Position numbers and translations under genes: made by a program. From NCBI GenBank assembly GCA_012965515.1, contig DTSE01000227.1, positions 1 to 32,314 on the forward strand: DNA of 32,314 nucleotides. The letters are read 5' to 3'. The notes beneath the pieces were generated by a model. That model saw only the letters and a list, made by a program, of their open reading frames with translations, did not search any database and was not told the origin of the DNA. Positions 6,690 through 23,879 of this stretch are shown one piece after another. The DNA comes from Candidatus Melainabacteria bacterium (GTDB taxonomy: Bacteria > Cyanobacteriota > Vampirovibrionia > Obscuribacterales > Obscuribacteraceae). Positions within the stretch are counted from its first letter, which is position 1; each line of letters opens with the position of its first letter.

Positions 6690-7475
6690 ATGGCGGACAC
6701 GACTGAGACAACAACTGAACCGACATCCGGTCCCTCGGCGATTTCGACAAGTCCGGGTGAGCTGAGAGATCCAGACACGGATAATTCGGCAGATGTTTCG
6801 ACCGATCTGATTTCGGTGCGGATGCGAAAACCGGTTGGCAGACCGAAGGATGAAGAGTTACCGGTGCGCCGCAGGCAGGAAATTTTGGACGCTGCCGCTC
6901 TGTTTTTCGCGCGTTTGGGCTATCCAAATTCGGATTTAAAATTGCTGGCAGAAGAGCTGGGCGTGGCGAAGGGGACTTTGTACCGATATTTCCCCAGCAA
7001 GAAACACCTGTTCCTAGCTACCGTCGATAATTGTATGCAGCAGCTCAGTGAACAAGTTAGTGTCGCCGCCGCACAGGTCGAATCTCCTCTCGATCGAATA
7101 GAGTATGCTCTGCGCGCTTATTTCCGTTTCTTCGATACTCATCCCTACGTGGTCGAGTTGATAGTCCAGGAAAGAGCGGAGTTCAAGGATCGTGCCTTGC
7201 CTGCTCCGCTAGATAAGGACAGTGGTGGAATCTGGCGGCTGCACTTTAGCGATTTGGTCGCCTCCGGTGTTCTGCGCAATGTGCCTGTGGAGAGGCTGGT
7301 GGACACGATGAGCAGCTTGCTGTACGGAGTGATTTTCAACAATTTCATCGGTGGTTCGACCGAATCACTTGAATCTAAAACCGAAGGTGTTCTCGACATA
7401 GTTTTCAACGGATTGATGACCGAGCAAAATTGCTATAGCGCAAAAGGAAACCATGGAAGTGAAATCGACAGTTAA
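6690..7475 (+). CDS. TetR-family repressor of the RND pump operon
   Basis: 261 residues. Residues 1-~60 are a disordered Thr/Ser/Asp-rich extension, longer than usual for the family. The DNA-binding domain follows: 'RRQEILDAAALFFARLGYPN' and then the helix-turn-helix 'LKLLAEELGVAKGTLYRYFP'. The rest is an all-helical ligand domain of the AcrR type, including 'YALRAYFRFFDTHPYVVELI'. Such proteins release DNA when a hydrophobic compound binds. The gene heads the adaptor/pump operon and its last 23 bases overlap the adaptor gene, indicating co-transcription. A palindrome directly after the -10 at 6593 is its probable own operator. The start at 6690 has GGGAG a few bases upstream; the ATG at residue 45 is a less likely alternative. 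Confidence 0.87.
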   Translation: MADTTETTTEPTSGPSAISTSPGELRDPDTDNSADVSTDLISVRMRKPVGRPKDEELPVRRRQEILDAAALFFARLGYPNSDLKLLAEELGVAKGTLYRYFPSKKHLFLATVDNCMQQLSEQVSVAAAQVESPLDRIEYALRAYFRFFDTHPYVVELIVQERAEFKDRALPAPLDKDSGGIWRLHFSDLVASGVLRNVPVERLVDTMSSLLYGVIFNNFIGGSTESLESKTEGVLDIVFNGLMTEQNCYSAKGNHGSEIDS

Positions 7476-8904
7476 CGAGACCGGCTCTGTGAGTCAGGAG
7501 CAAACGAAACCGTCCTCAGATGGTGCGGTCGTTCAAACGCGGTCGCAACCTTTTTATAAGGGCAGGAAAGCGATTGTTCTCTGCGTGGTGGCAGTTGTTG
7601 CCTGCGTTGCGGTGGTTATGTTCAATCATTCCCACGGCGCGCAGGACGCGAAAATACAAGCTCCCGAGCCGGTCATCACAGTGACAACTGAGAAGGTCGC
7701 TCCTCATTTGATGAAAGGAGTGGTTCAGGTAAACGGTACAGTTTGGGCTTGGGATCCGCTTACCATCGGCTCTGAGGTGAATGGGCTAAGAATCGAGACT
7801 ATCTATGTTGATGAAGGCGACAAAGTGAAACGCGGTCAGGTTTTGGCTCGCCTTAATGCATCCGTTTTGAATGCGCAGCTGGCGGAAGAGAAAGCGAAGT
7901 TGGCTGCACAGGAAGCTACGCTGAAGCGAACTATTCAACCAAACCGCCCGGAAGACTTGGTCTCCCTGCAAGCGGCTGTTTACCAGAGCGAATCTGCAGT
8001 AGCAGAGGCTGAAACGATGCTCGTCAAAGCCAGAGCTAATTTGGTCAATGCTCAGAATAACGCTCATCGCTATCGTGGGCTGATCGGGCAGGGGGCTGTC
8101 AGTCAGCTGGAAGCCGATCAGAAAGACACCGAAGCGAAGACAGCTGATGCTGAGACTAGAAACGCCGAGCAAAAGGTACGGACGGCGAAGTTTCAACTAG
8201 AACAATCCAGGCAGCGCTTGATCATGGGCCAACAAGGAGGCCGCAAAGAAGACGTGGACATCTCGCGTGCGACAGTTGCCCAGATGAAAGCAAATGTGCA
8301 ACGTCTCCAAGCGCTTGTGGCACAGTCCGTAATCAAGGCCCCTTCTGATGGTTTGATTATGCGTCGAGATGCGCACCTTGGTGAAATTACTGCAGTCGGA
8401 AAGGCTCTTTTCTTGATGGTTAGAGACAATCGATTGGAGTTGCGTGCTCAAGTTCCGGAAGTCGATTTGCCGCTCATACACCCTGGTCAGAGAGTTGAAA
8501 TAACTGACTCCACAAGCTCCAGCTACAAAGTGGAAGGTAAAGTACGGGAGGTCAGCCCGATGCTCGACCAGGACATGCGGTTGGGAACTGTGCGCATTGA
8601 TTTGCCAGTCTCTGAAGGCAAACAAGCTCACATCTTCAAGCCAGGTAATTTCGCCCACGCCACTATCGACATTGGCGACCGAACACCGCTTGCTGTGCCG
8701 GCGGCGTCCATACTCAGCCGCGAGCATCGAAGCTTCGTCTATGTCGTCAATGCCGACAACACCGTGTCCACTCGTGATGTGAAAACTGGCGAGAGAGTAG
8801 AAGGTTATGCTGAAGTTGTCTCAGGGTTGAATCCCGGAGAAACAGTTGTCGTGCGCGGCGCCGGATTTTTGAAAGGCGGAGATCTGGTCAGAGTTGGCCA
8901 GTAG
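7453..8904 (+). CDS. RND efflux adaptor (membrane fusion protein)
   Basis: 483 residues. After a ~36-residue cytoplasmic tail a single membrane anchor occurs at about 39-57 ('AIVLCVVAVVACVAVVMF'). The HlyD/AcrA fold follows: first half of the lipoyl-like domain ('IYVDEGDKVKRGQVLARL'), a long Ala/Gln/Glu-rich coiled-coil hairpin (roughly 135-290), second lipoyl half ('VIKAPSDGLIMRRDAHLGEI'), then beta-barrel and membrane-proximal domains ending 'GFLKGGDLVRVGQ'. It links the inner-membrane pump to an outer-membrane channel across the periplasm. The start ATG (AAAGGAAACC upstream) lies within the end of tetR. The pump gene follows after 68 bp. Confidence 0.92.
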   Translation: MEVKSTVNETGSVSQEQTKPSSDGAVVQTRSQPFYKGRKAIVLCVVAVVACVAVVMFNHSHGAQDAKIQAPEPVITVTTEKVAPHLMKGVVQVNGTVWAWDPLTIGSEVNGLRIETIYVDEGDKVKRGQVLARLNASVLNAQLAEEKAKLAAQEATLKRTIQPNRPEDLVSLQAAVYQSESAVAEAETMLVKARANLVNAQNNAHRYRGLIGQGAVSQLEADQKDTEAKTADAETRNAEQKVRTAKFQLEQSRQRLIMGQQGGRKEDVDISRATVAQMKANVQRLQALVAQSVIKAPSDGLIMRRDAHLGEITAVGKALFLMVRDNRLELRAQVPEVDLPLIHPGQRVEITDSTSSSYKVEGKVREVSPMLDQDMRLGTVRIDLPVSEGKQAHIFKPGNFAHATIDIGDRTPLAVPAASILSREHRSFVYVVNADNTVSTRDVKTGERVEGYAEVVSGLNPGETVVVRGAGFLKGGDLVRVGQ

Positions 8905-8972: not shown

Positions 8973-11900
8973 ATGAACTGGAATCTCTCAACCTGGTCAA
9001 TCAAAAATCCAGTTCCTGTGCTGGTTCTCTTCCTGGTGCTCATGGTGATGGGTTCGCTGGCGTTTGTCGCGCTGGGTATTGACGAAAACCCGAACATCGA
9101 CGTGCCCGTAGCATCCGTAACCGTAACGCAAATGGGCGCCGCACCGTCAGAGTTGGAGACTCAAGTTACCAGAAAAATAGAAGATGCGGTGTCCGGAATC
9201 GGCAATGTCAAACACATCATGTCGACTGTCAATACAGGCGCTTCCACTACCAGTATTGAGTTTGTTCTCGGCACAAATACGGATCGCGCCGTCAATGACG
9301 TTCGCGATGCAATCGCCAAAATCAAACAAGATTTGCCAGATGGCATCGACGAGCCGATTATTCAGCGTGTTGATTTCGTGGGCGGACCATTCGTCAGCTA
9401 CACGGTTTCCAGTCCTACATTGACGCCCACTGAAATTAGTTGGCTTGTAGACAACGACCTTGGCAGAGCACTACTCTCGGTGCCTGGCGTCGGGCAAGTG
9501 CAGCGCGCTGGTGGCGTCGATCGTGAAATAAGAGTAGACCTGGACCCGACCCGTTTGGAGGCGCTCGGTGTTACTGCAGACATGGTCAACGCCCAAGTGC
9601 GGGCACTGAACATCGACCTTCCGGGAGGGCGTGGAGAGATCGGCAGAGCCGAGCAATCAATCAGAACGCTCGGTAGCGCTCACACGCTGGAACGCTTGAG
9701 TGCCACTGAGATTCTGCTTCCACAAGGCAGGCATGCACGTCTCGACACGTTGGGAACAGTCACTGACAGCGCTTCTGAAGTGCGGCAAATGGCGATCATG
9801 GACGGCAAGCAAGTTGTCGTTTTCTCCATCGTTCGCAGTACCGGAAGTAACCTGGTTGATGTCGAGAAAGCCGTGGACAAACGTTTGGCAGAATTGAAAA
9901 CCTCTCTGCCTAAAGACGTCCAAATCAATAAGATTCGTACTAACGGTAAATATGTCAAAGAGGCTTATGACGCATCGCTCGATTCACTCATTATCGGAGC
10001 GCTGCTGGCTGTTGCCGTTATCTATATCTTTCTGAAAGACTGGCGCGCCACCTTCATTTCCGGTCTGGCCATTCCATTGTCTGTCGTTCCTACATTTGCA
10101 GTAATGCAATGGGCCGGCTTTACACTGAATGGTATGTCACTGCTGGGTTTGGCTCTCGTTATCGGGATTCTCGTCGATGACGCCATCGTCGAGATCGAAA
10201 ATATTGTTCGTCACTTGAAGATGGGCAAGCCGCCTTTGAAGGCTGCCATTGAAGCTGCCGAAGAAATCGGAATGGCCGTTATTGCAACGACTATGACAGT
10301 TATTGTGGTCTTCGTTCCAGTCGCATTCATGGGAGGCATTCCCGGTCAGTTCTTCAAGCAGTTCGGTCTAACTGTTACGGTTGCAGTTCTATTTTCTCTC
10401 CTTGTTGCTCGTATGGTCACGCCAATGATGGCTGCTTACGGTATGAAGGATATGCCTGAGCATAAGGGGCGCGGCAAGCTGATGCGCCTTTACGAAAAGA
10501 TGCTTATTTGGGCTCTGAATCGGCGCTTATTGACGGTCATTGCTTCCATTGTTCTTTTCGTCGTCAGTATTGCGCTTTTCAAATCGATGCCTACTTCATT
10601 GATAAGCAATGTCGACAGGGGCGAGTGCCTTATCAATGTCGAATTACCACCGGGTGCGGTGCTGTCTGACACCGAGCGCGCCTGCAATCAATTGACCAAG
10701 ATTGTCTCCAGCCATAAAGAAGCAAGAGCGGTTGTTGCTTTCATCGGCACGCCGACCGCATCTCGGCGCAGCTCGGCTGGCAATCAAGGTGAAGTAAACA
10801 AGGCAAGTATATACATTACTATGGTGCCTAAAGAGCACCGCAAAATTTCACAGCAGGCATTTGAAGAGAAACTGCGCCAGGAAATTAAGGTGGTGCCGGG
10901 TGTGCGCCTGACTTTCTCGCGCTCCTCCGGTATGACCGGAAAGCCTGTTCGTATTGCGCTGACAAGCAATGATCCATCGGACCTGGAAAAAACAGCGGAG
11001 AAACTTATTGACGAGATGCGTCCGGTTAAAGGGCTCAGCGATGTGACGTCCAGCGCCTCATTGCTCAGACCTGAGATATTGGTAAAGCCGGATTTCGAGC
11101 GGGCTGCCCGTGTCGGTGTTTCCGTCATGGCTATTGCAAGAACAGCCCTCATTGCCACCTTGGGCGACTCTGATGCAAATCTTGCGAAATTCGATTTGAA
11201 AGATCGGCAGATCAATATTAGAGTGCAGCTCGACCCTCAGTACCGCAATGATATGGCTACGATCGGCAATTTGAAGGTGCAAGGCAATAATGGTCGTCTG
11301 GTCCCACTCAAGAGTGTTGCCACAGTAGAGTTTGGCAGTGGACCTTCGCAAATCGACCGATTTGATCGCGAGCGCCAGGTGACAGTGGAGGCGAGTCTCG
11401 ATTCCAATCTGACATTGGGTGACGCTCTGAAGAAAGTTCACCAGTTGCCTGCGTTCAAGACGATGCCTAAATCAATTCATGAACAACCACTAGGTGATGT
11501 CGAAATTCAACGCGACGTATTCAATGGTTTCGGTACGGCAATCGGCGCTGCCGTGTTACTCATCTATGCTGTTTTGGTCGTTCTCTTTGGCGGTTTTCTG
11601 CACCCGTTGACCATCATGATGTCGCTCCCTCTCTCATTGTGTGGTGCATTGATCGGGCTTGTGATGTTCAATCAATCTATCGGTCTTTACGCTTTGATAG
11701 GCATAACGATGTTGATGGGCTTGGTGACGAAAAACGCTATTTTGCTTGTTGAGTATGCGCTTGTCCAAATGCAAAATGGTTTGCCTCGCCGCGAGGCTCT
11801 AATAACTGCCGGTGAAACTCGGATGCGCCCAATCTTCATGACTACGATTGCCATGATTGCCGGCATGTTGCCTGTGGCAATGGGGATCGGCGCAGGTTCT

Positions 11901-12116
11901 GAAGCAAGAGCGCCGATGGCAATATCGGTTGTCGGCGGATTGATCACTTCTACGCTTTTGACTTTGCTCGTCATCCCTGTGGTCTTCACTTATATCGATG
12001 ACTTCCAGGGCTGGCTAATGCGCGTTTTGCCGCATTCTTTGAAAGGTCCGTCCGCGCATGGAAGCGAGCATGTGAAGTCGAGTCAAAAGGATGTGGAGAA
12101 GCATACCGTTGGCTAA
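8973..12116 (+). CDS. RND multidrug efflux pump, HAE1/AcrB type
   Basis: 1047 residues, the standard AcrB/MexB length. It begins with TM1 ('VPVLVLFLVLMVMGSLAFVA'), followed by the periplasmic porter domain ('AAPSELETQVTRKIEDAV'). The proton relay is intact: Asp402-Asp403 in 'GILVDDAIVEIENI' (TM4) and Lys920 in 'GLVTKNAILLVEYA' (TM10), matching AcrB Asp407, Asp408 and Lys940. This points to the drug/hydrophobe (HAE) branch rather than metal export. It exports amphipathic compounds with the upstream adaptor. No outer-membrane TolC-type gene occurs in the window, so the exit channel must be encoded elsewhere. Its stop overlaps the start region of secreted protein A, which therefore belongs to the same transcript. 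Confidence 0.95.
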   Translation: MNWNLSTWSIKNPVPVLVLFLVLMVMGSLAFVALGIDENPNIDVPVASVTVTQMGAAPSELETQVTRKIEDAVSGIGNVKHIMSTVNTGASTTSIEFVLGTNTDRAVNDVRDAIAKIKQDLPDGIDEPIIQRVDFVGGPFVSYTVSSPTLTPTEISWLVDNDLGRALLSVPGVGQVQRAGGVDREIRVDLDPTRLEALGVTADMVNAQVRALNIDLPGGRGEIGRAEQSIRTLGSAHTLERLSATEILLPQGRHARLDTLGTVTDSASEVRQMAIMDGKQVVVFSIVRSTGSNLVDVEKAVDKRLAELKTSLPKDVQINKIRTNGKYVKEAYDASLDSLIIGALLAVAVIYIFLKDWRATFISGLAIPLSVVPTFAVMQWAGFTLNGMSLLGLALVIGILVDDAIVEIENIVRHLKMGKPPLKAAIEAAEEIGMAVIATTMTVIVVFVPVAFMGGIPGQFFKQFGLTVTVAVLFSLLVARMVTPMMAAYGMKDMPEHKGRGKLMRLYEKMLIWALNRRLLTVIASIVLFVVSIALFKSMPTSLISNVDRGECLINVELPPGAVLSDTERACNQLTKIVSSHKEARAVVAFIGTPTASRRSSAGNQGEVNKASIYITMVPKEHRKISQQAFEEKLRQEIKVVPGVRLTFSRSSGMTGKPVRIALTSNDPSDLEKTAEKLIDEMRPVKGLSDVTSSASLLRPEILVKPDFERAARVGVSVMAIARTALIATLGDSDANLAKFDLKDRQINIRVQLDPQYRNDMATIGNLKVQGNNGRLVPLKSVATVEFGSGPSQIDRFDRERQVTVEASLDSNLTLGDALKKVHQLPAFKTMPKSIHEQPLGDVEIQRDVFNGFGTAIGAAVLLIYAVLVVLFGGFLHPLTIMMSLPLSLCGALIGLVMFNQSIGLYALIGITMLMGLVTKNAILLVEYALVQMQNGLPRREALITAGETRMRPIFMTTIAMIAGMLPVAMGIGAGSEARAPMAISVVGGLITSTLLTLLVIPVVFTYIDDFQGWLMRVLPHSLKGPSAHGSEHVKSSQKDVEKHTVG

Positions 12117-13044
12117 GCGAAGAAATTGGCCGGCACTTTTCGTGGTGCCTCTGTTTGTATTTCAGGTGTTTGTTTTCTTTTGCCCGATAGCACCAGCATC
12201 ACCCGGTTCCGGTCGCGCAGAAAAGCCAGCTTTGCACCTGAACAAGGGAGCAGATGCGGCGTCGAAGATTAAGCCTCTGGTCAATAATGCCAACCCGACA
12301 TTCACATTTGGTGGTGTGAAAGAAGTTGATGGGCTATTGCTCAAGCAAGAGTTTCGCTTCATCGGCAAAAGCACCACTTACTTCTCACCACTGGGAATCA
12401 GTCTGCAGTCGAGCACGCTGTCTGTTTTGTTCAATTCAAAAACGCAGGTGATGTGCATCTTCAGTGATGATACAAAAAAGTTCTATGCGTGCGATCCGGA
12501 AACATGGAAGAAGAAGTCCACCATCATGTTTAAAGGTGACGCGGCGGGAGTTAAGTATTCGCCTTGGAAATTTGAACGCAATGAAACGGTTGCTGGGATG
12601 AAAACCAAAGTATTCAGTCGTTATTCGTATATGAAGACGTCCACAAACCTGGATACGGTTTGGGTTACCGATGACATTAGACTGGGTCCGGACGCGCGCA
12701 ATCTAATGTTTTCGATGTTAAAAGTGACGGCCGCCGTGCCGGAAGGAGTTCCTCTCAGGCACGCTATTTCCAGCAAGCACCAGAAGATGATAGACAAGAG
12801 CGCAGACTTTCTCGGTCGTCATCGCGTGCGGCAAATGAGAGATCAAGACGAAGTCGATTACCAGACTTTCTCAATTCAAAAGGTAAAAATTCCCGTCTCG
12901 AAGTATGTGATGCCGAAAGGGTACAAACGCGCGGAGAGCGAAATGGAAGTCTTCTTCAATACTGAAGATGCCATGGGAGGAGTCGATGTACCGGACTTGA
13001 GCATGCCTGATCCGAAGAAGCGCCCGCAAGAAAAGTTCAGATAG
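12109..13044 (+). CDS. Secreted protein A (paralogue of the protein at 15514), unknown function
   Basis: About 311 residues. The chosen start is the TTG at 12109, with GGAG ten bases upstream; the ATG at 12091 adds six residues but its AAAGG abuts the codon. Both overlap the end of the pump gene. The N-terminus is a signal peptide ('FVVPLFVFQVFVFFCPIAPA'), so the protein is exported. It is clearly related to secreted protein B. Shared landmarks in order are Thr-Lys-(Lys/Arg)-(Phe/Tyr), a 'W(K/R)KK' motif, 'SPWK', 'E(T/K)(V/I)AG(M/L)K' followed by '(F/Y)SR', and near the C-terminus 'Y(K/Q)xxxxEM' then an acidic 'MGG'. The pattern suggests a LolA/DUF4412-like beta fold that could hold a lipid or bind an envelope component; this is a guess. 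The gene overlaps the convergent kinase gene by 8 bp. Confidence 0.75.
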   Translation: MAKRRNWPALFVVPLFVFQVFVFFCPIAPASPGSGRAEKPALHLNKGADAASKIKPLVNNANPTFTFGGVKEVDGLLLKQEFRFIGKSTTYFSPLGISLQSSTLSVLFNSKTQVMCIFSDDTKKFYACDPETWKKKSTIMFKGDAAGVKYSPWKFERNETVAGMKTKVFSRYSYMKTSTNLDTVWVTDDIRLGPDARNLMFSMLKVTAAVPEGVPLRHAISSKHQKMIDKSADFLGRHRVRQMRDQDEVDYQTFSIQKVKIPVSKYVMPKGYKRAESEMEVFFNTEDAMGGVDVPDLSMPDPKKRPQEKFR

Positions 13045-15394
13045 AACGGGTTGCCACCGGCGGCGGTGCGTGATTGAGAATTTGCCAACAGCGATAACGT
13101 TCGCTCAATGCTTCCATGTGGTCCCCTTTGTTCCACAAAGCATCGGCGTACTTCATCATGACCGATGCTCGCTTAGGGTTGTCCGCGCCGACTGATCGAG
13201 CCATTGCATCGTTTGCCTCTTTGAGGTAATAGAGCGACTGCTCCTTTTCACCTACTCCTGCCATGACTTGAGAAATTCGCAAATCGCACAACGCAACGTT
13301 TTGACTCTCTAATTCTCCATTGCGGCGCCAGTTATTTTTCGCCGATTTGTATAGAGTGTAGGCGTATTTGAAACTTTTCTGCGTGTTATAGGGAACGATC
13401 AAATCCCCAAAGCGAGCCGCTGTGATTGAAAAGCGAACGGAATCGCTGCCGCTGTTTTTCCAGCGATCAAGGGCGCGCTGGTAATAATCTTCTGCTTCCG
13501 AGCGGTTGCCCATGAAGTTATAAGAGTCAGCAAGCATAGACTCGCAATCGCCTTTCCATTGCGGGCTGGCAGGCCATTCATCGCTCTCCAGTGCGGCTTT
13601 TAAATGTGTTTCCGCTTCATCGAATTTGCCCATCTCATAGCAAACGCGCCCTCGGTAAAAGAGCAGGTTCGCGTAAGCAGTTGAGAATTTGCTGATATAC
13701 CTTGCTGCGATATCGGATGCTCTCTCCAGACTACGCGAAGCGTCTTCCAGCCTGCCGTTTTCTTCCAGTCCGAGACCGGCATTTGTCAGTGCTTTGACAA
13801 TCTGCCCCGGAGTGCTCACTCCCTCGGCAATGAATTCGTCAGCCTTCTTGATATACGTCTCAACTTGCGTAAAAGCTAGAGACGCTTTGTCTTCGTTAGT
13901 AATGCCAGGGGGCTTGGGCGGAATCCAGTTGAGAATGTTCGAGCTCAGCCAGGGAGAATTTGTGGTGATTGTGATAAACGAATAGCAAAACCAAATCGCA
14001 TATAGCACCATGAACGATACCACAAGGGCCGCGCTCGCCATGACCTTTTCCCTGGTGCTAAGCTTCGGTCTTTTTGCCCATGCCAGTGAGAGTTTTGCTA
14101 ATGTCTGATCTACAGGATTTTTCCCGCGCGCCATGTAGAGCTCGGTAAGCTCATTCTTAAGCAGCCGCATTGATTGCAAGCGGTCGTCACGTTTTGGCGC
14201 CAAGCACTTGAACACGATAGCTTCCAATCGAGCCGTTGCATCGGTCTCCGGAATCACTGATTTGAAACTGGGAGGTGTTTCCGAGATATGTTTGTGCAAG
14301 ATTTGCAGTGTCGAATCGCCGGTATGCGGCGGGCGCCCGGTCAAAGCCTCGTACATCAGGCAGCCCATGGAGTATACATCCGAGCGCTCATCCAGCTCGC
14401 CGCCCAGGCATTGCTCGGGGCTCATGTAGTGAGGTGATCCGAATACATCGCCTGTCTGCGTCAGTTTCGCCTGCGTGTGCCCATCTTGTACCAGCACCTT
14501 GGCGATGCCGAAATCCACGAGTTTTGCAACTTCTGCTTCGTCTCCTTGGTGAGAAAGGATAACGTTGCTAGGCTTCAGATCGCGGTGGATAACGCCCTTT
14601 TCGTGTGCGTGCGTCAGGGCTGCTGCCAGCTGTACGAAGATGTTTAGAGCCTCTGTATATTCGAGTCTGCCTTTTTCTTTGATGACAGCGGAAAGCGAGC
14701 GGCCCTGCAGGAAGTCCATCGTCATGAAAGGCAAACCGCTGTCCGTTGTGCCGACGTTGTACACCTTCACAATACTGGGGTGATCAAGATGGCTGGCTGC
14801 AGTTGCTTCTTGTTGAAACCGCTGAACACTGAGTGGATCGACAGAGAGATGAGGCATCAAGACTTTCAGCGCAACAAACTTTTTCAAGCGGCGATCGCGC
14901 GCCTTGAAGACCATGCTCATTCCGCCCTTGCCAATGTTTTCAGTCACTTCATAGCGACTTTCGACCAGCTGTCCTAACAGTTCGAGACGCGGATCAATGA
15001 GTGACGCCGTCGCTCTGACGGAGGCGGGATTGCCGGATAACTCAACAGTCCTGGTCGAGCTGCCTGGAGGTTCGCAATGGTCGGAGAAGTCGGAATGTAC
15101 ATCTTCGTCGAGTGAAGGTTCCGCATCGAGATGCCGTTCATTTTCTCCCGGCTCAAAGCTTAGAACTCCCGCCGGTTTCCTGTTTTCGGACTTTCCGTTT
15201 TTCTGCTTGGTGCTCTCTATCTTGCCGTTTTCGGGAACGTTTTCTGCAGGAAGACCGTTTTTAGAATCAGAAACTTCAGCCAGGGGCGTGCCATCCTGTG
15301 GGCAAAAGCGCATCTCCGCAGGATATCCAGCCTCGCAGGCAGGACAGTGCTTCGCGAGTTCTTTTTTGCCCTCGTCTCCTACCGCTTTTGGCAC
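13037..15394 (-). CDS. Zinc-ribbon/kinase/TM/TPR receptor Ser/Thr kinase (module A)
   Basis: 785 residues in four parts. Residues 17-35 form a zinc-ribbon-like knuckle (Cys17, Cys20, Cys31 in CPAC...FCPQDG). A disordered Glu/Ser-rich linker runs to ~135. The kinase (about 148-410) has Gly-loop 'IGKGGMSMVFKA', Lys177, 'HRDLKPSN' with Asp272, 'LVDFGIAKV' and 'GSPHYMSPEQC'. A membrane helix at ~450-471 is followed by a Pro-rich linker and an outer domain of TPR-like helices (e.g. 'LLFYRGRVCYEMGKFDEAET', 'ADSYNFMGNRSEAEDYYQRA'). It should phosphorylate cytoplasmic proteins in response to an envelope signal. The start is uncertain: GTG at 15394 is given, but a CTG four codons upstream sits better behind AGGGGA. 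It is a close structural paralogue of the kinase at 16462-18903. Its 3' end overlaps secreted protein A by 8 bp. Confidence 0.9.
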   Translation of the reverse strand: MPKAVGDEGKKELAKHCPACEAGYPAEMRFCPQDGTPLAEVSDSKNGLPAENVPENGKIESTKQKNGKSENRKPAGVLSFEPGENERHLDAEPSLDEDVHSDFSDHCEPPGSSTRTVELSGNPASVRATASLIDPRLELLGQLVESRYEVTENIGKGGMSMVFKARDRRLKKFVALKVLMPHLSVDPLSVQRFQQEATAASHLDHPSIVKVYNVGTTDSGLPFMTMDFLQGRSLSAVIKEKGRLEYTEALNIFVQLAAALTHAHEKGVIHRDLKPSNVILSHQGDEAEVAKLVDFGIAKVLVQDGHTQAKLTQTGDVFGSPHYMSPEQCLGGELDERSDVYSMGCLMYEALTGRPPHTGDSTLQILHKHISETPPSFKSVIPETDATARLEAIVFKCLAPKRDDRLQSMRLLKNELTELYMARGKNPVDQTLAKLSLAWAKRPKLSTREKVMASAALVVSFMVLYAIWFCYSFITITTNSPWLSSNILNWIPPKPPGITNEDKASLAFTQVETYIKKADEFIAEGVSTPGQIVKALTNAGLGLEENGRLEDASRSLERASDIAARYISKFSTAYANLLFYRGRVCYEMGKFDEAETHLKAALESDEWPASPQWKGDCESMLADSYNFMGNRSEAEDYYQRALDRWKNSGSDSVRFSITAARFGDLIVPYNTQKSFKYAYTLYKSAKNNWRRNGELESQNVALCDLRISQVMAGVGEKEQSLYYLKEANDAMARSVGADNPKRASVMMKYADALWNKGDHMEALSERYRCWQILNHAPPPVATRSI

Positions 15395-15513
15395 TTCCGA
15401 CAGTTGATGGTTCCCCTGAAGATCTCAGTTTCTACATTCCCCCTTTACGATCTTCTATCTCTTAGAACGTAGTATGATGCCTGCCGGATTACATTTTCGG
15501 AGCAGATTTTCTC

Positions 15514-16446
15514 GTGCCGACCATGCGCCGCAAGTTTTTCTCTTTCAGCCTCTATTTGCTGCTTTTAGCGGTTTTTCTTCCACCGCAGGTGCAAGCTGCA
15601 GCCCCTGAAAAAAGTGCAGTTACTGCAAAAGCCGCTGGAGCGTCGAGCGCCAGTGCAACAAAGTCCCCGGTTTCAGCCGGGAAGAAAGAGCCGGCAAAGC
15701 CCGCCGGCGGACCACCTGCTCCTGGTTGGGAGTTGCAGCAGTGGCATCGCATGGCTGGTCGGATCAGGCTAGTTTCAAACAAGTATGGCGGGAAGTTCGA
15801 AACAACCCACTATACGCTGCTCAAGCCGCTGCCCGGCGAAAAAATGTATTTCTTGAACCAGCAGACGAAGCGCTATGTCAACTACACGGTTGAGATGTGG
15901 CGAAAGAAATTCAATTTCTACCACAAAGACCCGGGACGCGCCAAAGACGCCGGATTTACCGAATTCTCTCCTTGGAAACGCCTGGGCGAGGAGAAGATTG
16001 CCGGGCTGAAGTGCGGACGATATTCGAGAATGCGCACCAACAACCTGCCGCCTCCCAATGACAAGACTTACACTGAAGAATGGTCCTTCTGCCGCGAGCT
16101 GACTGTGCCGTCTGCATTGATAGACCTGTACAAGAAAACGCTCTATTTGAATTACGACGCCAAGCTTGGTTTTCCGATGAGAGTAAAGGAAATTCGGGAG
16201 TGGAGCGGCAAGAAGGCCAAGAAGGTCGACGTCAGCTATGACACGCTCAAATTCATCAAAGGCAGCTTTCCTCAATCCTTTTTCGAAATGGGTAAAGACT
16301 ACAAACAGGTCAAGGACGAAATGTCCGTGCTCATGGATGAAGGAGCAGATATGATGGGCGGCGACATGATCGGTGGCGGCGGCGGAGACGGCGCGCTCGG
16401 CGGACTTGAGATCAATGAAGAACTGAAGCGACGCGTCGGCAAATAG
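15514..16446 (+). CDS. Secreted protein B (paralogue of the protein at 12109), unknown function
   Basis: 310 residues. The GTG at 15514 has GGAG eleven bases upstream; an ATG three codons later is the alternative. The signal peptide ('FSFSLYLLLLAVFLPPQVQA') is followed by an Ala/Ser/Lys/Pro-rich low-complexity stretch to ~residue 70. The folded part contains 'EKMYFLNQQTKRYVNYT', 'MWRKKFNFYHKD', 'FSPWKRLGEEKIAGLKCGRY' and 'DYKQVKDEMSVLMDEG', all with counterparts in protein A. The C-terminus is Gly/Met/Asp-rich ('MMGGDMIGGGGGDG'). The repeated 'value of a stored state' strands (e.g. MYFLNQQTKRY) recall LolA/DUF4412-like envelope proteins, but no function can be assigned. A possible -10 (TATGAT, 15473-15478) lies upstream in the 119-bp region shared with the divergent kinase. 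It ends 15 bp from the next convergent kinase. Confidence 0.78.
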   Translation: MPTMRRKFFSFSLYLLLLAVFLPPQVQAAAPEKSAVTAKAAGASSASATKSPVSAGKKEPAKPAGGPPAPGWELQQWHRMAGRIRLVSNKYGGKFETTHYTLLKPLPGEKMYFLNQQTKRYVNYTVEMWRKKFNFYHKDPGRAKDAGFTEFSPWKRLGEEKIAGLKCGRYSRMRTNNLPPPNDKTYTEEWSFCRELTVPSALIDLYKKTLYLNYDAKLGFPMRVKEIREWSGKKAKKVDVSYDTLKFIKGSFPQSFFEMGKDYKQVKDEMSVLMDEGADMMGGDMIGGGGGDGALGGLEINEELKRRVGK

Positions 16447-16461
16447 GACGTTTGTGTCAAC

Positions 16462-18903
16462 TTAGATTTGCACTTTGGGCACTTGTCTGGAATAGTCCAG
16501 CTTGAGTAGAATGGCTTGGACTGCGCCACCGTGCTTCCATAAATAGTCTGCATACTGCTTTTCGGCAATGCATGTGGTAAGCAGAGATCCTTTCGTTTTC
16601 ACGGCCTTGAGCGCTGCTTCGTAGCTGTCTTTTGGATCTTGGTTCATCTTCTCTTCCAGCGCTGCGATTTTTAGATATGCAAGAGCCTCATTGTCAGCTG
16701 ATTTGAGCGTCCCCCATCGCGCTGCTGCATCTTTGTAATAGTCTTTCGCCTTTTGATAGACTTCACCGTTTTGCAAACTATCGGCAAAGTGGCTCAACAC
16801 CAGCGCGTACTCTTCTTTGCCTTGAAACTCTCTTGCCGCCTCGACATATCTGCCTATCTCCAGCGGACCCCAGTGAGTCCATTCAAGAGCGTCACCGTGC
16901 ATGGAGGCAAAGAAATTTCTGTAGGCGGTAATGGCGTCAGAATATTGACCGATGTAATAGTACGATTCTGCAGTCTGCACCACGCCTTTCATTGTCTTGG
17001 CTGCCGTTTCGCCGTACATGAAGTTGCCGACATGCTGCATGTAGATCGAAAATTCTCTGGCTGCAAAAGCATAGTCTTTGGCGTAATAGCAGGCTTCTGC
17101 ATACTCGCGACGCAGCATCAAGGTGGGCAAGCACATATCACCGTTGAGATGTTTACTGAGCTCGAGAGCAAGCGCGTATGCTCTTTCTGAGTCCTCCCAA
17201 TGGTTGGCTTCCGCCATCTTGTTGCCCCAGATGGTCATATGTTCGAGTGTTTCAGTATCGACTTTCTGGGGTGAGTTTCTCAAAAGACCTTTTGCGTAAT
17301 CGATATCAGCCTGGTAGATAGAAAGCGCCGTCTGTCCGACATTTGCCGGTGGTGGTGGCGGAGGCGCATACCAGTCAAGCTTTTGCTTGAAAACTTCTGA
17401 TTCATCCGCAAAAGCATATTGGGAGATCAAAAAAGCACAGGCGGCAAACAGTCCCAGTAGCGATGCTGTAAGCGCGCCAAGCATGATGAATTCGCTCTTC
17501 TTGCGCGGACGTCGTTTGAGAATGAATAATTCCCAGCTTGTCACTATGCGACCTAAGAAAGAACTCTTGCGGTAGAAAAATATCTGTTTGAGCTCATCAT
17601 GAACTGCTTGCATGGAAGCCGGACGACTTGCCGGATCTTTTGACAGTGCCTTGAATATAAGTGCTTCCAGACGTTGCGGAATGCTTATTCCTAGCTTCAG
17701 ACTCTTGAAGTCTTTCGGCACTTCGTTCATGTGACGGTAAAGAACTTCCAGCATATTGTTGCCGGTATGCGGTGGAGTGCCGCACAGTGTCTCGTACATC
17801 AGGCATCCCATCGAATAAATGTCGGCTTTTGCATCCAGCTTTTCGCCTTTGCATTGTTCGGGGCTCATGTAGAGCGGACTGCCGAATACGTCACCTGTCT
17901 GCGTGAGGCTGACGGCGTCACGACCTTCATGTGGAAGCAGTTTTGCTATCCCGAAGTCGACGATTTTGCAAACATCCTTTTCGCCATTTTGTTCGCACAG
18001 CAGAACGTTGCTGGGTTTCAGATCTCGATGCACAATCCCGTTCTGGTGTGCATGGCACAGGGCAGAGGACAACTGGATGAATATGTTCAATGCTCGGTCG
18101 ACGGGCAAGTGTTTTTCTTTCTTGATGAGCGTCGCCAGAGAGCTTCCTTCGATCAAGTCCATCACCAGAAATGGCTGACCGCTTTCCGTTTCTCCGTAGT
18201 TGTGAATACTAACCACATTGGGATGATTGAGCGCGCTGGCCGATTGAGCCTCTTGTTGGAAGCGCGCCATGCTGTGCGATTGCAACATCAAGTGCGGCAA
18301 CAACATTTTCAGTGCGACATACTTTCCTAGCTTCAAATCCTTCGCTTTCAATACCACGCTCATGCCACCATATCCGATGGCGCCTACGATATGGTATTGA
18401 TCGTTTACCGTTGTACCAATCAGCTTGCTTGCTGCTTCTCTCGCGAATGTTGCTGGTGCGCTTTCTCCGGATGACTCCAGGTCACCCTCCTGAGTTTGCC
18501 AGTCTTCATTTGCAAATGTGACGTCAATAGTTTTGGTATGAGACTCATTTCGGTCTCCATTGCTAATTTTGTTTCCAAAACCGCTCTTCGCATCCTTTCC
18601 GAAATCTCCTTTTTCCTTCTTTCCTGACTCGTCATCCTTTTGACGTGCTGCCGGTTCCTCATGCAGTACCTGTGCAAGGAGAGAACCAGCAGACATGGCC
18701 AGTGCTGAAGAATCTGCAGGAGCGATGCTATTGACCTTGGTAATCTTCTTTGTGTTTGCCGAAGTGAAGTCCTTTTTCTTATCCGGCTTAGGCGCAATCA
18801 GTCTTGTGCCGTCATTGGGGCAAATTTTGGTGGTAGGCGAAAAGTGCTGACCGCACTCGCTGCAGGTGTTTTCGATGGTAATTCTGCCTGAATCGTCTAC
18901 CAA
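16462..18903 (-). CDS. Zinc-ribbon/kinase/TM/TPR receptor Ser/Thr kinase (module B)
   Basis: 813 residues with the same order of parts as the kinase at 13037-15394. A zinc-ribbon-like knuckle (Cys14, Cys17, Cys28: CSEC...ICPNDG) is followed by a long Lys/Glu/Ser-rich linker to ~160. The kinase (about 168-430) has 'IGYGGMSVVLKA', Lys199, 'HRDLKPSN' with Asp294, 'IVDFGIAKL' and 'GSPLYMSPEQC'. A membrane helix lies at ~472-494, then a proline run (WYAPPPPPP). The outer domain of repeated helix pairs (e.g. 'RREYAEACYYAKDYAFAARE', 'AESYYYIGQYSDAITAYRNF') is TPR-like. It is a membrane receptor kinase with unknown ligand and substrate. The start is TTG at 18903, with AGGAAGG rather far upstream (about 13 bases), so the exact start is uncertain. 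It faces secreted protein B with a 15-bp gap. Confidence 0.9.
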   Translation of the reverse strand: MVDDSGRITIENTCSECGQHFSPTTKICPNDGTRLIAPKPDKKKDFTSANTKKITKVNSIAPADSSALAMSAGSLLAQVLHEEPAARQKDDESGKKEKGDFGKDAKSGFGNKISNGDRNESHTKTIDVTFANEDWQTQEGDLESSGESAPATFAREAASKLIGTTVNDQYHIVGAIGYGGMSVVLKAKDLKLGKYVALKMLLPHLMLQSHSMARFQQEAQSASALNHPNVVSIHNYGETESGQPFLVMDLIEGSSLATLIKKEKHLPVDRALNIFIQLSSALCHAHQNGIVHRDLKPSNVLLCEQNGEKDVCKIVDFGIAKLLPHEGRDAVSLTQTGDVFGSPLYMSPEQCKGEKLDAKADIYSMGCLMYETLCGTPPHTGNNMLEVLYRHMNEVPKDFKSLKLGISIPQRLEALIFKALSKDPASRPASMQAVHDELKQIFFYRKSSFLGRIVTSWELFILKRRPRKKSEFIMLGALTASLLGLFAACAFLISQYAFADESEVFKQKLDWYAPPPPPPANVGQTALSIYQADIDYAKGLLRNSPQKVDTETLEHMTIWGNKMAEANHWEDSERAYALALELSKHLNGDMCLPTLMLRREYAEACYYAKDYAFAAREFSIYMQHVGNFMYGETAAKTMKGVVQTAESYYYIGQYSDAITAYRNFFASMHGDALEWTHWGPLEIGRYVEAAREFQGKEEYALVLSHFADSLQNGEVYQKAKDYYKDAAARWGTLKSADNEALAYLKIAALEEKMNQDPKDSYEAALKAVKTKGSLLTTCIAEKQYADYLWKHGGAVQAILLKLDYSRQVPKVQI

Positions 18904-19055: not shown

Positions 19056-20210
19056 TTGAGTAGAGCCAGATCGAGATTATCTGAGATGACTGTGGCAGCG
19101 GCAGGGCAAGAGCAAGGGCAGAAAACTGGGCGCCGGGAGGCGATTCCTGTGCCTTTCTTCTATCGTTGGCTGCGCTCGATGCTTTTCGAGATGGACCCCG
19201 AGGAAGCCCACACTCTGGCGATTCAGCTTGCTCCCGTAGCAGCGGCGATGACCAGCGGGCCCTTCGTGGACCCCTGTTTGGAGACTTCTGTCGCCGGCGT
19301 TAGGTTCGCCAATCCGGTCGGACTGGCTGCCGGTTTCGATAAAAATGGACGCTTGACCAGTTGCCTTTCTAAGTTTGGTTTTGGCTTTGCTGAAATAGGC
19401 TCGATTACTGGGCAGTCCTCCAGCGGCAATCCTAAGCCCAGGCTTTTCCGCCTGGTAGACGATGAAGCGGTGATCAATCGCCTCGGTCTCAACGGTGACG
19501 GAGCTTCAGTTGTGGCACAGCGACTTGCGGGAGCAGGCTTTTCTTTGCCGGTCGGCGTCAATATCGCTAAGACCAATCATCCGTCGATCAAGGCAGAGAA
19601 GGGCGTTGCCGACATGCTGCACTCATTCGAGTGCATCAAAGATTTGCCGCTTGCCTTTGTGACTTTGAACGCCAGTTGCCCGAACACGCATGAGGGGATC
19701 ATGCAGGAAAGTGAGGAACTCGACCAGATTTTGTCCGGCGTGCAGAGGCTCAATGTGCGCAATGTCCCGGTTTTGCTTAAACTATCTCCGGACAGCACCA
19801 GTGAATTGTTGGAAACTTTTGTGGCAAGCGCAAGTAGATACGGCATCAAGGGTTATGTTCTCGGCAACACTACGACTACCCGCGGTGGTCTGAGAACGCC
19901 AATCAGTAAGGTTGCTGCGATGGGAAATGGCGGACTAAGCGGCAGACCGCTTAGAGAAAAAGCGCTGGATCTCGTGAAGCGCGTCTACAAGATCAAACAG
20001 AAAGACCAGTCCATCATAGGGTGTGGCGGAATTTCGAGCGGTGCCGATGTTTTCGAGTTCATTGCCAACGGTGCCAATGCCGTTGAGCTCTATACCGGCT
20101 TGATATACGGCGGGCCGGATTTGCCGTTGAGAATCAACCGCCAGTTGGCGGCACTTTTGAGACAAAAGGGTCTGACCGCGGAAACTGCCTTAGGCTGTGC
20201 GGAGAATTGA
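19056..20210 (+). CDS. pyrD: Dihydroorotate dehydrogenase, class-2-like, with Cys in the catalytic-base position
   Basis: 384 residues. It oxidises dihydroorotate to orotate, the fourth step of pyrimidine synthesis. The N-terminal helices ('FFYRWLRSMLFEMDPEEAHT') are those of membrane-associated, quinone-using class 2 enzymes. FMN/substrate motifs are intact: 'GLAAGFDKNG', 'PKPRLFRL', 'VINRLGLNGDG', 'GNTTTTRGGL', 'GGLSGRPL' and 'IIGCGGISSG'. The unusual point is 'LNASCPNT': Cys208 stands where class 2 enzymes have the catalytic Ser (E. coli 'NISSPNT', Ser175), while class 1 enzymes use Cys ('NLSCPN'). The start is TTG at 19056 behind TAGGGT; an ATG at 19086 would remove ten residues before the conserved region. 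It appears to be transcribed alone. Confidence 0.93.
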   Translation: MSRARSRLSEMTVAAAGQEQGQKTGRREAIPVPFFYRWLRSMLFEMDPEEAHTLAIQLAPVAAAMTSGPFVDPCLETSVAGVRFANPVGLAAGFDKNGRLTSCLSKFGFGFAEIGSITGQSSSGNPKPRLFRLVDDEAVINRLGLNGDGASVVAQRLAGAGFSLPVGVNIAKTNHPSIKAEKGVADMLHSFECIKDLPLAFVTLNASCPNTHEGIMQESEELDQILSGVQRLNVRNVPVLLKLSPDSTSELLETFVASASRYGIKGYVLGNTTTTRGGLRTPISKVAAMGNGGLSGRPLREKALDLVKRVYKIKQKDQSIIGCGGISSGADVFEFIANGANAVELYTGLIYGGPDLPLRINRQLAALLRQKGLTAETALGCAEN

Positions 20211-20269: not shown

Positions 20270-21367
20270 TTAATTCGATTCGGCTGCTTCTGATTCCGGC
20301 TCACAGCAAGTAGTGTCACCTTCTGCGGTGTCATGCGCGTTTAGTGGTTTCAGATAAAACTCTTGGGCGAGGAATTGCAAAGCCGATGCGCAAGGGACGG
20401 CTATAAGAGCGCCTGGCAAGCCTAAAAGCGTCGCTCCGATGAGGATTGCAAAAAGTACGAGGAGAGGGTGCAACTCAACTTGTTTGCCGAGCAGCTGTGG
20501 AACGATGAAGTTGCTTTCAAGCCATTGTTCCAAAGCAAAGAGCAAAAATACGAAGACCGCCAGCATCTCTGACTGGTTGAAAGCCACCACCAGAGACAAT
20601 ACCATCGCAATCGCTGAGCCGACAAACGGAACCAGGTTGAAAAGCCCGGCCAATGCGCCTAGAACCAGCGAATACTCTACTTTCAGAATAGTCAGTCCGG
20701 TACCTAGAAATAGAGCGACGACGATACTGACCAGCAGTTGTCCACGTACATAACCACCCATACGCCCGCCCAGGGGGCGGATTAAGGAACCCACTCTCTC
20801 TCGATTAGTCTGGGGCACCCAGAGCAAAAGTTTTTGCCACATGTCTTTTGCTTCGACTACAAAATAGCAAGTGAGAAAGAGCACCAGAATGGCATTTGCC
20901 AGTGCTCCCATGAGCCCGGCCGTGAGGCTTAGCGTATGCCTTGCCACATTGGGTGCGAATTCTTTCAGTCTCTCCGGATCGATCTTCATGTGATCGCCGT
21001 CGGAGCCGACATACTCTGTCAAAACTGGAAACTTTGTGGTAAGCCCCTGAATATATCTTGGAAGGTGCTCGTAAAGCGCTAATGCTTGCTCTTTCATTGG
21101 CGGAAAGAGTAGATAGGCGACGAGCGAATAGATCAAGCCTGTGGCAATGAATATCGCAATTACCGTTGCAATACGTGGGACTTTGCGTGTCTCAGCCCAC
21201 TCAGCCACCGGTGCGATTGCTGATGCCAGGGTGATCGCCATCAGCAAGCAGACGACCATGATTCGGAGTTCGAATATGAGCCAGCAGATAAGTGCGCCGA
21301 GAAATAAATAGAAAACCGATAGCGCAGCTCGTGCTCCAGGACGACGCCTTTGGAAATGTGGTTTCAT
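20270..21367 (-). CDS. AI-2E family transporter (PerM-like)
   Basis: 365 residues with the AI-2E/UPF0118 pattern. Two N-terminal helices ('YLFLGALICWLIFELRIMVV' and the next) are followed by a third near residue 65, a soluble central stretch with 'LYEHLPRYIQGLTTKFPVLT', then five further helices. The signature C-terminal region is 'GLFNLVPFVGSAIAMVLSLV' and 'LLGLPGALIAVPCASAL'. Family members export small molecules or ions (autoinducer-2, Na+/H+ exchange in some); the substrate here cannot be inferred. The ATG lies four bases after the stop of the upstream glycosyltransferase gene, so it is the last gene of a three-gene operon. Confidence 0.9.
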   Translation of the reverse strand: MKPHFQRRRPGARAALSVFYLFLGALICWLIFELRIMVVCLLMAITLASAIAPVAEWAETRKVPRIATVIAIFIATGLIYSLVAYLLFPPMKEQALALYEHLPRYIQGLTTKFPVLTEYVGSDGDHMKIDPERLKEFAPNVARHTLSLTAGLMGALANAILVLFLTCYFVVEAKDMWQKLLLWVPQTNRERVGSLIRPLGGRMGGYVRGQLLVSIVVALFLGTGLTILKVEYSLVLGALAGLFNLVPFVGSAIAMVLSLVVAFNQSEMLAVFVFLLFALEQWLESNFIVPQLLGKQVELHPLLVLFAILIGATLLGLPGALIAVPCASALQFLAQEFYLKPLNAHDTAEGDTTCCEPESEAAESN

Positions 21368-21371
21368 GAGT

Positions 21372-23879
21372 CTAATTAACCTTCAAAACGCGGCTGGGCA
21401 GTCCGATCATGTCTCCGTTTTTGTCAAGAGCAACTGCGACTATCTCATGACTCTTTCCATCATTGTAGACTTCCGGCGGTATGTTGAAGGCGCCTTCCGT
21501 TTGTTCGAAGGAGATCCAGCGCTGGACCCGTCCTGTAATGCTCTGATCGGTCGATGCTAGTTTTTTCTCTTTCGATAAGATTCTAAGATTTCGATAGTTT
21601 TGCAAAATATTGCCATCGATGGCAGTATCAAACTCAGTGCCGGGATTTGAAATTAACACAAGCACTGCGGCGGCATCGCGGATTTTCTTTGCATCGACTT
21701 GGAATTGCCCTTTTCCTGGCGTTCTCGACAATTCCGGCACGCACTCATCTTTGGCAAAACCTTCTATCGATTCGATATCAACATAATAGGGAGAAACTTT
21801 GAGCGATAAACCGACGCCGTTTACCGGACCACCGAGGAGCCACTCCTTGTTGTTACCCAATGGGCATTCGTAAGTGTTTTCGCCGGTTCTTATAAGATTT
21901 GCTGACTTTTCTCCAGCGAGCACAATTGCATTTTGAGTCCAACTCAATCTGATTAAATGAAGCAGTCTCTCAATTGGTTGATCGGAGTTTACTCTCATTT
22001 TGATTTTGACAAGTGGCGTGTAGAGCGGATTTACGGATTCAACCGGCTTTGTGGCAGTGAGCCCGCTTTCCCCTGTGTAGAAGCGCGTGCCATTCTTTAG
22101 TGCCACCATCTGTGGTTCCAGTGCGTAAAACACATGCCATTGCCGTCCGTCTGTTTTCTTCACTGTGCTGGGAGTATATCTGCAGTTATTTGCGTCTATA
22201 AACGAGCATTGAAAGCCGCTTTTACCCGCTGAAGCATCAATCGGGTGCAGCTTGCTATCCGCTTCACTCCAAAAATAGGCTTTCTTTGTCTTTTCGCTTT
22301 TCACTAAATCTTGAAGAAGATCGGATGAATATTGGAAGTGGTCGTAGGGATATTCCACTGCCGCCGTGTCGAAACTTTGCCCTTCTTCACCTGCAGTAAA
22401 CGGTGGGTTCATCATCGTTTTGAAATATTCTGGCCGAGCCAGTACTGGTGCTCCATGCACGTCCGCCGGCAGATTGAGAAGAACGAAGCGCTCGTTAGGA
22501 CTTTGCCGGTGCAGGTCTGAAATTGCTTGTCGAAGCTTTTGAAGCATCTCTCCTGCGCCGGAGAATGCTGTGACATTTTTGTGAGCCATCGAACAAAATA
22601 CAATAAATGTAAAAGCGAGAACTCCAATGCCGGTTGCAGCTACTAATCTTGTCGAGGTTCTATCTACAGAATCTTCATTCGGCACAAACGCGAAAGCTAG
22701 TGCGAGCGCCAATGCCGCCGACGAAAGGAAGAACAGGCGTGAACCGCACAGATTGCTGGCGATGTTCCAAATCTGAAAAGTCGGAAGGATTGAAATTGCG
22801 CCAAAGAGGAAAAAGGCGATGAAATATCGAATCAAGGATGGGGTCGCCAAGCATCTCAAACTGGCGAAGACTGCCGCCGCTATATATGTGGCAAACCCGA
22901 TGGTGAGTAGGCTTTTGGTCGGTGGCAGGAGTTCCTCATTGGCGGGCACCAAGATTTTTAGAATCGCTGCTTTGTTTGCAAAAACTGCAAACATGGAACT
23001 GAAACCGCTATCTCCATAGCCGCCGATAAAGCTGCCTAGAAGAATAGCTCTGACAGCTGCGAACCCAATTAAAATCAGCCATAGAAGCCCCAGCGCTCTA
23101 AGTTCCAAAGGTGCGGGAATGCGAATGAATCTGGACCACGGCTTTTGATTTTGTCTATTTGCAGATGTCTCAGGGAGCAAAAATGCAAAGACGGTTGCTA
23201 CTGCAGGCAGTGTCACCGCCATTTCTTTGCTTAAGAGAGCAAGTAAAAAACAACCGGCAGAAAGCCAGATGTAGGGCTTTTCTTCGATGAGTTTTAGACG
23301 AAGGAAGTAATACAGTGACGCCAGATAGAAAAGCGTACAGAGCAAGTCGACACGACCGATTATCCAGGCAACAGACTCGACATGAAGAGGATAAGCAGCA
23401 AACAGCAACGCTGCCCAGATGGCTGTAGTTGCCCGCATTCTGTTGCCGAAGTTACCTGACAGCTCGGAAGCGATTAAAGCAACAAAGAGGCAACAGCCGC
23501 AAGTCAGAAGGAGGTTTGTGACGTGAAAGCCAACGGCATTCGTTCGGTAAACAATAAAGTCCAGCAGAAGCGACAGAGACACGAGCGGACGGTAGCTGCG
23601 CATCAAGTCGGAGCCGCCCCAATTGCTGTACAGATTGGCCAGTAAATCTCCTGCGTCACCGTTGACCACGGCTCTAGCGACATAATCCAAATGCAACCAA
23701 TCGTCGTGCAAAAATCCAATTTTGAGTGTCGGCCAAAAAATGGTAAATACGACCAGTGAAGACATAATTGTCGCGAAAACAATTTGTGTTTTCACTGACA
23801 GGAAGTCCAGCTTGGCTGGTTCTAGGTCGAGTTTGCTCAGATCTTGTTTTTCGGTATTTGCTGTGCTGGGCGCCGTCAT
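21372..23879 (-). CDS. GT-C membrane glycosyltransferase, TMTC/GT39-like (copy 2)
   Basis: 835 residues. The first ~450 are a polytopic membrane domain of about 11-13 helices. The first outer loop contains the acidic pair Asp59-Asp60 ('FLHDDWLHLDYV') expected of GT-C enzymes, which use polyprenyl-phosphate sugars. Downstream come 'YPLHVESVAWIIGRVDLLCT' and 'LLSKEMAVTLPAV', motifs shared with bacterial relatives of TMTC/protein O-mannosyltransferases. The last ~370 residues are soluble, probably periplasmic, and rich in beta strands. It is likely to glycosylate a protein or envelope polymer; donor and acceptor are unknown. The start ATG overlaps the stop of the related upstream gene (ATGA), and AI-2E follows after 4 bp. 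About the same length and order of parts as its neighbour, it looks like a tandem duplicate that has diverged. Confidence 0.85.
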   Translation of the reverse strand: MTAPSTANTEKQDLSKLDLEPAKLDFLSVKTQIVFATIMSSLVVFTIFWPTLKIGFLHDDWLHLDYVARAVVNGDAGDLLANLYSNWGGSDLMRSYRPLVSLSLLLDFIVYRTNAVGFHVTNLLLTCGCCLFVALIASELSGNFGNRMRATTAIWAALLFAAYPLHVESVAWIIGRVDLLCTLFYLASLYYFLRLKLIEEKPYIWLSAGCFLLALLSKEMAVTLPAVATVFAFLLPETSANRQNQKPWSRFIRIPAPLELRALGLLWLILIGFAAVRAILLGSFIGGYGDSGFSSMFAVFANKAAILKILVPANEELLPPTKSLLTIGFATYIAAAVFASLRCLATPSLIRYFIAFFLFGAISILPTFQIWNIASNLCGSRLFFLSSAALALALAFAFVPNEDSVDRTSTRLVAATGIGVLAFTFIVFCSMAHKNVTAFSGAGEMLQKLRQAISDLHRQSPNERFVLLNLPADVHGAPVLARPEYFKTMMNPPFTAGEEGQSFDTAAVEYPYDHFQYSSDLLQDLVKSEKTKKAYFWSEADSKLHPIDASAGKSGFQCSFIDANNCRYTPSTVKKTDGRQWHVFYALEPQMVALKNGTRFYTGESGLTATKPVESVNPLYTPLVKIKMRVNSDQPIERLLHLIRLSWTQNAIVLAGEKSANLIRTGENTYECPLGNNKEWLLGGPVNGVGLSLKVSPYYVDIESIEGFAKDECVPELSRTPGKGQFQVDAKKIRDAAAVLVLISNPGTEFDTAIDGNILQNYRNLRILSKEKKLASTDQSITGRVQRWISFEQTEGAFNIPPEVYNDGKSHEIVAVALDKNGDMIGLPSRVLKVN

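Follow-up and report, generated by a model that had tools for sequence, protein, structure and literature searches.

A tandemly duplicated unit of an exported-protein gene and a TPR receptor kinase gene in Obscuribacterales: a candidate two-protein receptor

The window analysed here, the whole 32,314-nt stretch of DNA (contig C227 of a 6.3 Mb MAG, 76% complete, from a lineage of uncultured relatives of cyanobacteria that do not photosynthesise), carries two adjacent units that have arisen by duplication, each made up of a plus-strand gene for an exported protein converging on a minus-strand gene for a receptor Ser/Thr kinase. We refer to the family of the exported proteins A and B as S, and to the partner kinases (here K1 and K2) as K. 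We favour the reading that S is a periplasmic, LolA-superfamily-like partner of the neighbouring TPR receptor kinase, A working with K1 and B with K2, and give it an even chance of being correct.

Layout, conservation and duplication of the unit

The genes of the locus are listed below. Gene calls throughout are simple longest-ORF calls.

6690-7475, plus strand: TetR gene, likely in one operon with the MFP, RND and A genes
7453-8904, plus strand: MFP gene, likely in one operon with the TetR, RND and A genes
8973-12116, plus strand: RND efflux permease gene, likely in one operon with the TetR, MFP and A genes
12091-13044, plus strand: A, exported S-family protein, 317 aa (ORF; ATG 12091 preferred as start)
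13037-15394, minus strand: K1, receptor Ser/Thr kinase, 785 aa (ALK lysine, HRD and DFG motifs)
15395-15513: divergent K1-B intergenic region, 119 bp, a candidate two-way promoter region
15514-16446, plus strand: B, exported S-family protein, 310 aa (alternative start ATG 15523)
16462-18903, minus strand: K2, receptor Ser/Thr kinase, 813 aa (ORF, Pfam)
19056-20210, plus strand: pyrD, conserved right flank of the module, kept in relatives
20270-21367, minus strand: AI-2E-type transporter, conserved right flank (similarity within relatives)

The four ORFs of the module are arranged as the initial annotation had described them. It had placed the start of A at 12109, but this is an in-frame TTG 18 nt inside the gene, and the translation start is more probably ATG 12091, as the residues encoded ahead of 12109 (WRxIPLxDR) recur in the orthologues from the genus. 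There is a 26-nt overlap between the end of the RND gene and the A gene. A appears to come fourth in a TetR-MFP-RND-A operon, a point absent from the initial annotation, and its 3' end shares 8 nt with the end of the K1 gene. A scan of the 119-bp K1-B intergenic region found no sigma-70-like site; in the module, promoter-like (sigma-70) sites were fewer than in shuffled sequences, and terminator-like sites were close to the expected count. The window also contains an apparent pair of tandem paralogues at 21372-26416 on the minus strand, adjoining ORFs with a 4-nt overlap that encode long membrane proteins of 835 and 846 aa with multiple spans.

Within the limits set by contig ends, the order RND-A-K1-B-K2-pyrD-AI2E is kept in all eight available genomes of the genus (Obscuribacterales MAGs). 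This includes G042, where the module is divided between the contigs L094 and L095, and G041, where the contig stops at K2. As the order of A/K1 and B/K2 is kept in eight genomes, it is neither an assembly artefact nor due to chance.

In three other genera, the corresponding position holds just one S-K unit. In g20 (three genomes; L085, L102 and L103) and g19 (L166), TetR, MFP and RND genes are followed by one S-K unit, with pyrD after it in L102 and L103, an AI-2E gene in L166 and neither in the L085 stretch. In g18 (L099), the S-K unit adjoins pyrD and there is no RND gene. The presence of a single convergent unit in these genera indicates that the two-unit state arose by tandem duplication, which bears out the earlier proposal that a two-gene module had been duplicated.

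The trees were quick searches without bootstrap. A, B and the single-copy S genes form one cluster in the S tree (SH-aLRT 88), all of them convergent with a kinase. A matching cluster was found in the kinase tree (SH-aLRT 86), and a second kinase tree includes a matching 24-row clade (SH-aLRT 89) that also holds L264, L124 and L110. The S cluster (A, B, S of the pyrD locus and L166) mirrors the K cluster (K1, K2, K of the pyrD locus and L166). On the timing of the K1/K2 split, two quick trees conflict, one placing K2 with the single-copy kinases (SH-aLRT 84) and the other making K1 and K2 sisters (SH-aLRT 82), and the S tree favours neither order of the duplication relative to the other genera.

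Domains of the kinases and predicted fold of the exported proteins

The domains and segments recognized in the four proteins are as follows, with signal peptides judged by eye.

15290-15346, minus strand: K1 zinc-ribbon-like motif CPAC-x10-CPQD, aa 17-35 (sequence; Pfam sub-threshold)
14153-14953, minus strand: K1 protein kinase domain, aa 148-414 (Pfam Pkinase)
13976-14044, minus strand: K1 single transmembrane segment, near aa 451 (hydropathy)
13040-13975, minus strand: K1 outer TPR domain (TPR_12, E=3e-19)
18811-18864, minus strand: K2 zinc-ribbon-like motif CSEC-x10-CPND, aa 14-31 (sequence; Pfam sub-threshold)
17596-18396, minus strand: K2 protein kinase domain, aa 170-436 (Pfam Pkinase)
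17419-17481, minus strand: K2 single transmembrane segment, near aa 475 (hydropathy and AlphaFold helix)
16465-17418, minus strand: K2 outer domain, predicted TPR-like alpha solenoid (AlphaFold, pLDDT 90)
12091-12201, plus strand: A signal-peptide-like N-terminus, KRRNW...LFVVPLFVFQVFVFF...APAS (read from the sequence)
15523-15597, plus strand: B signal-peptide-like N-terminus, MRRKFFSFSLYLLLLAVFLPPQVQA (read from the sequence)
15718-16338, plus strand: B folded core, residues ~69-275, predicted LolA-superfamily-like (AlphaFold, Foldseek)

K1 and K2 are paralogues, as had been claimed, and are 32% identical over essentially their full length (E=2e-111). Both are receptor-type Hanks Ser/Thr kinases (PF00069, E=1e-48 and 1e-50, respectively) with ALK, HRD and DFG motifs and one transmembrane segment. 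The outer TPR domain of K1 is recognized by Pfam. That of K2 was undetected by sequence (TPR_12, E=0.36) and is assigned from the AlphaFold model, for which designed TPRs, kinesin light chain and LGN are the top PDB hits. The motif C-x2-C-x10-C-x2-D (C-P-x-D) gave Pfam matches with E values of 0.012-0.25, all under the cut-off, and for this reason we call it zinc-ribbon-like. The common order of zinc ribbon, kinase, transmembrane segment and TPR domain seen by the initial annotation stands, with the first part read as zinc-ribbon-like. A third receptor-type kinase gene in the window (3575-5773, minus strand) has no adjoining S gene; judged by eye, the outer part of its product resembles LRRs, and the kinase tree puts it among the background kinases of LRR type.

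A and B, too, are paralogues rather than unrelated proteins (BLASTP E=3e-10, 24% identity over 228 aa), and a single iterated profile recovers both. Positions that are invariant or nearly so in the S family include G82, W129, G164, Y263, K264, E269 and M270 (B numbering). Inspection of A and B by eye showed no lipobox. The lineage is reported to be diderm, with lipid A genes (PMC4040986), and this together with the signal-peptide-like N-termini makes a periplasmic location probable; A and B, first described as secreted, are thus exported but better read as periplasmic. One further S protein (L105:8746-9801) has a C-terminal hydrophobic segment, a possible membrane anchor.

The core of B was modelled by AlphaFold (20 sequences) with a pLDDT of ~90, except for a loop near residues 131-150. 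Its predicted secondary structure is mostly beta with a few helices, compatible with the LolA superfamily. The best PDB match of the model in Foldseek was the LolA-like protein 4mxt (E=1e-4), and the other top matches were EPDR1, RseB (three entries), LolA3, a Vibrio LolA-like protein, LppX and LprG. Foldseek probabilities reached 1.0, yet the best TM scores were only 0.29-0.43, with identities of ~10%. The fold of B thus appears nearest to the LolA/RseB/LppX/LprG superfamily, but as a remote match with TM below 0.5, and at these scores the likeness is a superfamily-level lead and not proof.

Searches by sequence did not place S in a characterized family. An NCBIfam scan gave scattered chance matches only, a PDB sequence search with the S profile returned nothing meaningful, and the RseB/MucB family was not matched in Pfam or NCBIfam scans; the neighbouring gene is also a kinase gene rather than RseA/MucA. 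Of 40 S members, 11 match DUF4412 (PF14371) at E<=0.05 (best 3e-5), with B at 14.3 bits, under the curated gathering cut-off of 21.6. Literature searches of limited scope found no papers on DUF4412, on Ser/Thr protein kinases of Melainabacteria or on extracellular TPR kinases. At E<=1e-20 and among the sampled genomes of the class, the S family is confined to its own taxonomic family plus two genomes that belong to a different family within the order.

Linkage of S genes to one kinase clade and what might explain it

S matches to a profile of 40 S proteins number 2-28 per genome in the seven genomes surveyed (17 in G000 and 18 in G037). For the 84 S genes listed for six genomes, with loci found via similarity to A/B and genes called uniformly, kinases occupy 22 of the 168 immediately flanking positions (13%), as against 7 of 567 positions at a distance of 4-8 genes (1.2%, for an odds ratio of 12 and P=9e-10). 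In a replicate set of 21 S genes, the counts were 7/42 and 1/124 (P=3e-4). At least one kinase neighbour was found for 20 of the 84 S genes (24%), and the other 64 (~76%) have none. Taken literally, then, it is correct for the family as a whole that most homologues lie away from kinases, and the expectation that they would lie beside kinases holds as a strong bias, complete in the cluster of A, B and the pyrD-locus genes, where every S gene adjoins a kinase. It also follows that S must have kinase-free roles or distant partners as well. The neighbouring pairs of the first set are in several orientations (12 divergent, 7 convergent and 3 co-directional), so the link survives rearrangement. No S-kinase fusion was found among the loci examined.

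Other arrangements were also seen. An independent tandem array, S-K-S-K, of mainly divergent pairs is present in genus g20 (L268 and L138), and several tandem kinases lie beside one S gene in G000:C383 and G037:C1 (L185 and L122).

Adjacency to S is largely confined to one kinase clade. S-adjacent kinases are mostly in a single 51-row clade (SH-aLRT 87) that includes only 2 kinases of the background, which was made up of the 36 best-scoring kinases from two genomes of the genus and is not a random sample. With orthologues removed, the S-adjacent label changes 8 times on the tree, compared with a minimum of 14 in 300 shuffles. TPR was found in 9 of the 10 S-linked kinases tested; among 10 background kinases, 4 have TPR and 6 have LRR.

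Distances among S proteins and among their partner kinases are modestly correlated. For 25 pairs, which are not independent, with the closest orthologues removed, Mantel tests gave r=0.35 (P=0.015) for the kinase domain and r=0.31 (P=0.008) for the outer domain; the values were larger when close orthologues were included. Among the genomes of the genus, the divergence of A roughly keeps step with that of the K1 outer domain (56/55, 60/63, 53/54, 54/56 and 56/56%), and B and the outer domain of K2 diverge more slowly than either. Neighbourhood and co-divergence are no proof of contact between S and the kinase, and we infer the binding of S to the TPR domain. Convergent S and K genes are not co-transcribed, which counts against a joint function.

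The position of A in an RND efflux operon supports a different role, in which S at this locus would be a periplasmic carrier or accessory of the RND exporter, and the kinase would separately regulate the same envelope process and not bind S. A lies after TetR, MFP and RND on the same strand and overlaps RND, and these four genes, with only one S, stand in the same order in g20 and g19. The fold matches of B include LppX and LprG, and triacylglyceride transport involves LprG together with Rv1410/P55 (PMC10576003). However, B is outside the RND operon, L099 keeps S-K-pyrD with no RND gene, no matching RND gene is present in the stretches around the S-K pairs of L074, L075, L084 and L105, and adjacency to kinases is family-wide and so wider than the link to RND. 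We consider the exporter role alone unlikely, though it and a partnership with the kinase can both apply.

That S and K are simply two large, expanding families, with pairs that were duplicated, dispersed and left adjacent by inertia with no joint function, we think distinctly improbable. Both families are indeed large, with 116 kinases in G037, and segmental duplication can yield neighbouring paralogues. Against this are the deep divergence of the pairs, their changed orientations, the adjacency kept across genera, and retention of both partners after duplication in 8/8 genomes. Least probable is a functional pair formed by K1 and B, which have a common 119-bp upstream region in the genus and the divergent arrangement that is commonest in the unbiased survey (12/22), since the single-copy units at this locus in other genera are convergent, making the convergent unit the one that was duplicated, and the rates of A and B match better with those of the K1 and K2 outer domains, respectively.

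Proposed mechanism and relation to known systems

For the favoured partnership of S with its kinase, we suggest that a carrier-like S acts as the sensing subunit. Its half-barrel would bind a lipid, a lipoprotein or another envelope ligand, and loaded and empty S would dock differently on the TPR solenoid. Docking could then alter kinase dimerisation and hence phosphorylation by the cytoplasmic kinase domain, in either direction. By analogy with the action of RseB on RseA, a signal from a lipid or lipoprotein may pass through S to the TPR domain, a kinase here taking the role of the anti-sigma factor. We infer the cognate pairing, namely which S belongs with which kinase. More broadly, and more tentatively, Obscuribacterales may possess a repeated two-protein receptor, a LolA-superfamily ligand-sensing subunit with a TPR-ectodomain Ser/Thr kinase, in many specific pairs; this lipid- or lipoprotein-sensing kinase family, not described before, we judge a little short of an even chance.

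The two genomes of genus g1 that were counted, that of the window and G037, have 113 and 116 protein kinase matches, respectively, and few bacterial receptor Ser/Thr kinases have a known input. An outer partner that is linked in the genome and diversifies along with the kinase is a concrete and testable candidate for what is sensed, and the tandem duplicate offers a natural comparison of specificity, A:K1 versus B:K2. If correct, the proposal would extend the RseB principle, a lipid-carrier fold used as a sensor, to signalling by phosphorylation.

In the envelope stress sensors RseB-RseA and MucB-MucA, the membrane signalling protein is acted on by a soluble protein of the periplasm, as K would be by S, and RseB is represented among the best structural matches of B. 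For MucA-MucB, lipid signals are described as antagonising the binding of MucB to its membrane partner (PMC7400510). Here, however, the putative partner is a TPR-ectodomain Ser/Thr kinase and not an anti-sigma factor, S has no RseB/MucB family match, and S-K pairs are convergent or divergent. DUF4412, matched by part of the S family, is a domain of unknown function.

S resembles the LolA, LppX and LprG carriers in its predicted fold and in being exported, and A sits in an exporter operon, as does LprG with P55. LppX serves MmpL7. S differs from these carriers in that the fold match is remote, A and B lack a recognizable lipobox, and S is linked to a kinase clade; a carrier role is putative.

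Like the PknB-type receptor kinases (PASTA, PknD), K1 and K2 have a cytoplasmic Hanks-type kinase domain, one transmembrane segment and an outer sensor domain, and their kinase domains match the NCBIfam PknB model. However, they score 334 and 315 bits against the PknB/PASTA equivalog NF033483, under its cut-off of 450, and neither contains PASTA repeats. They have instead an outer TPR solenoid, an N-terminal zinc-ribbon-like motif and a separate gene for the putative S partner.
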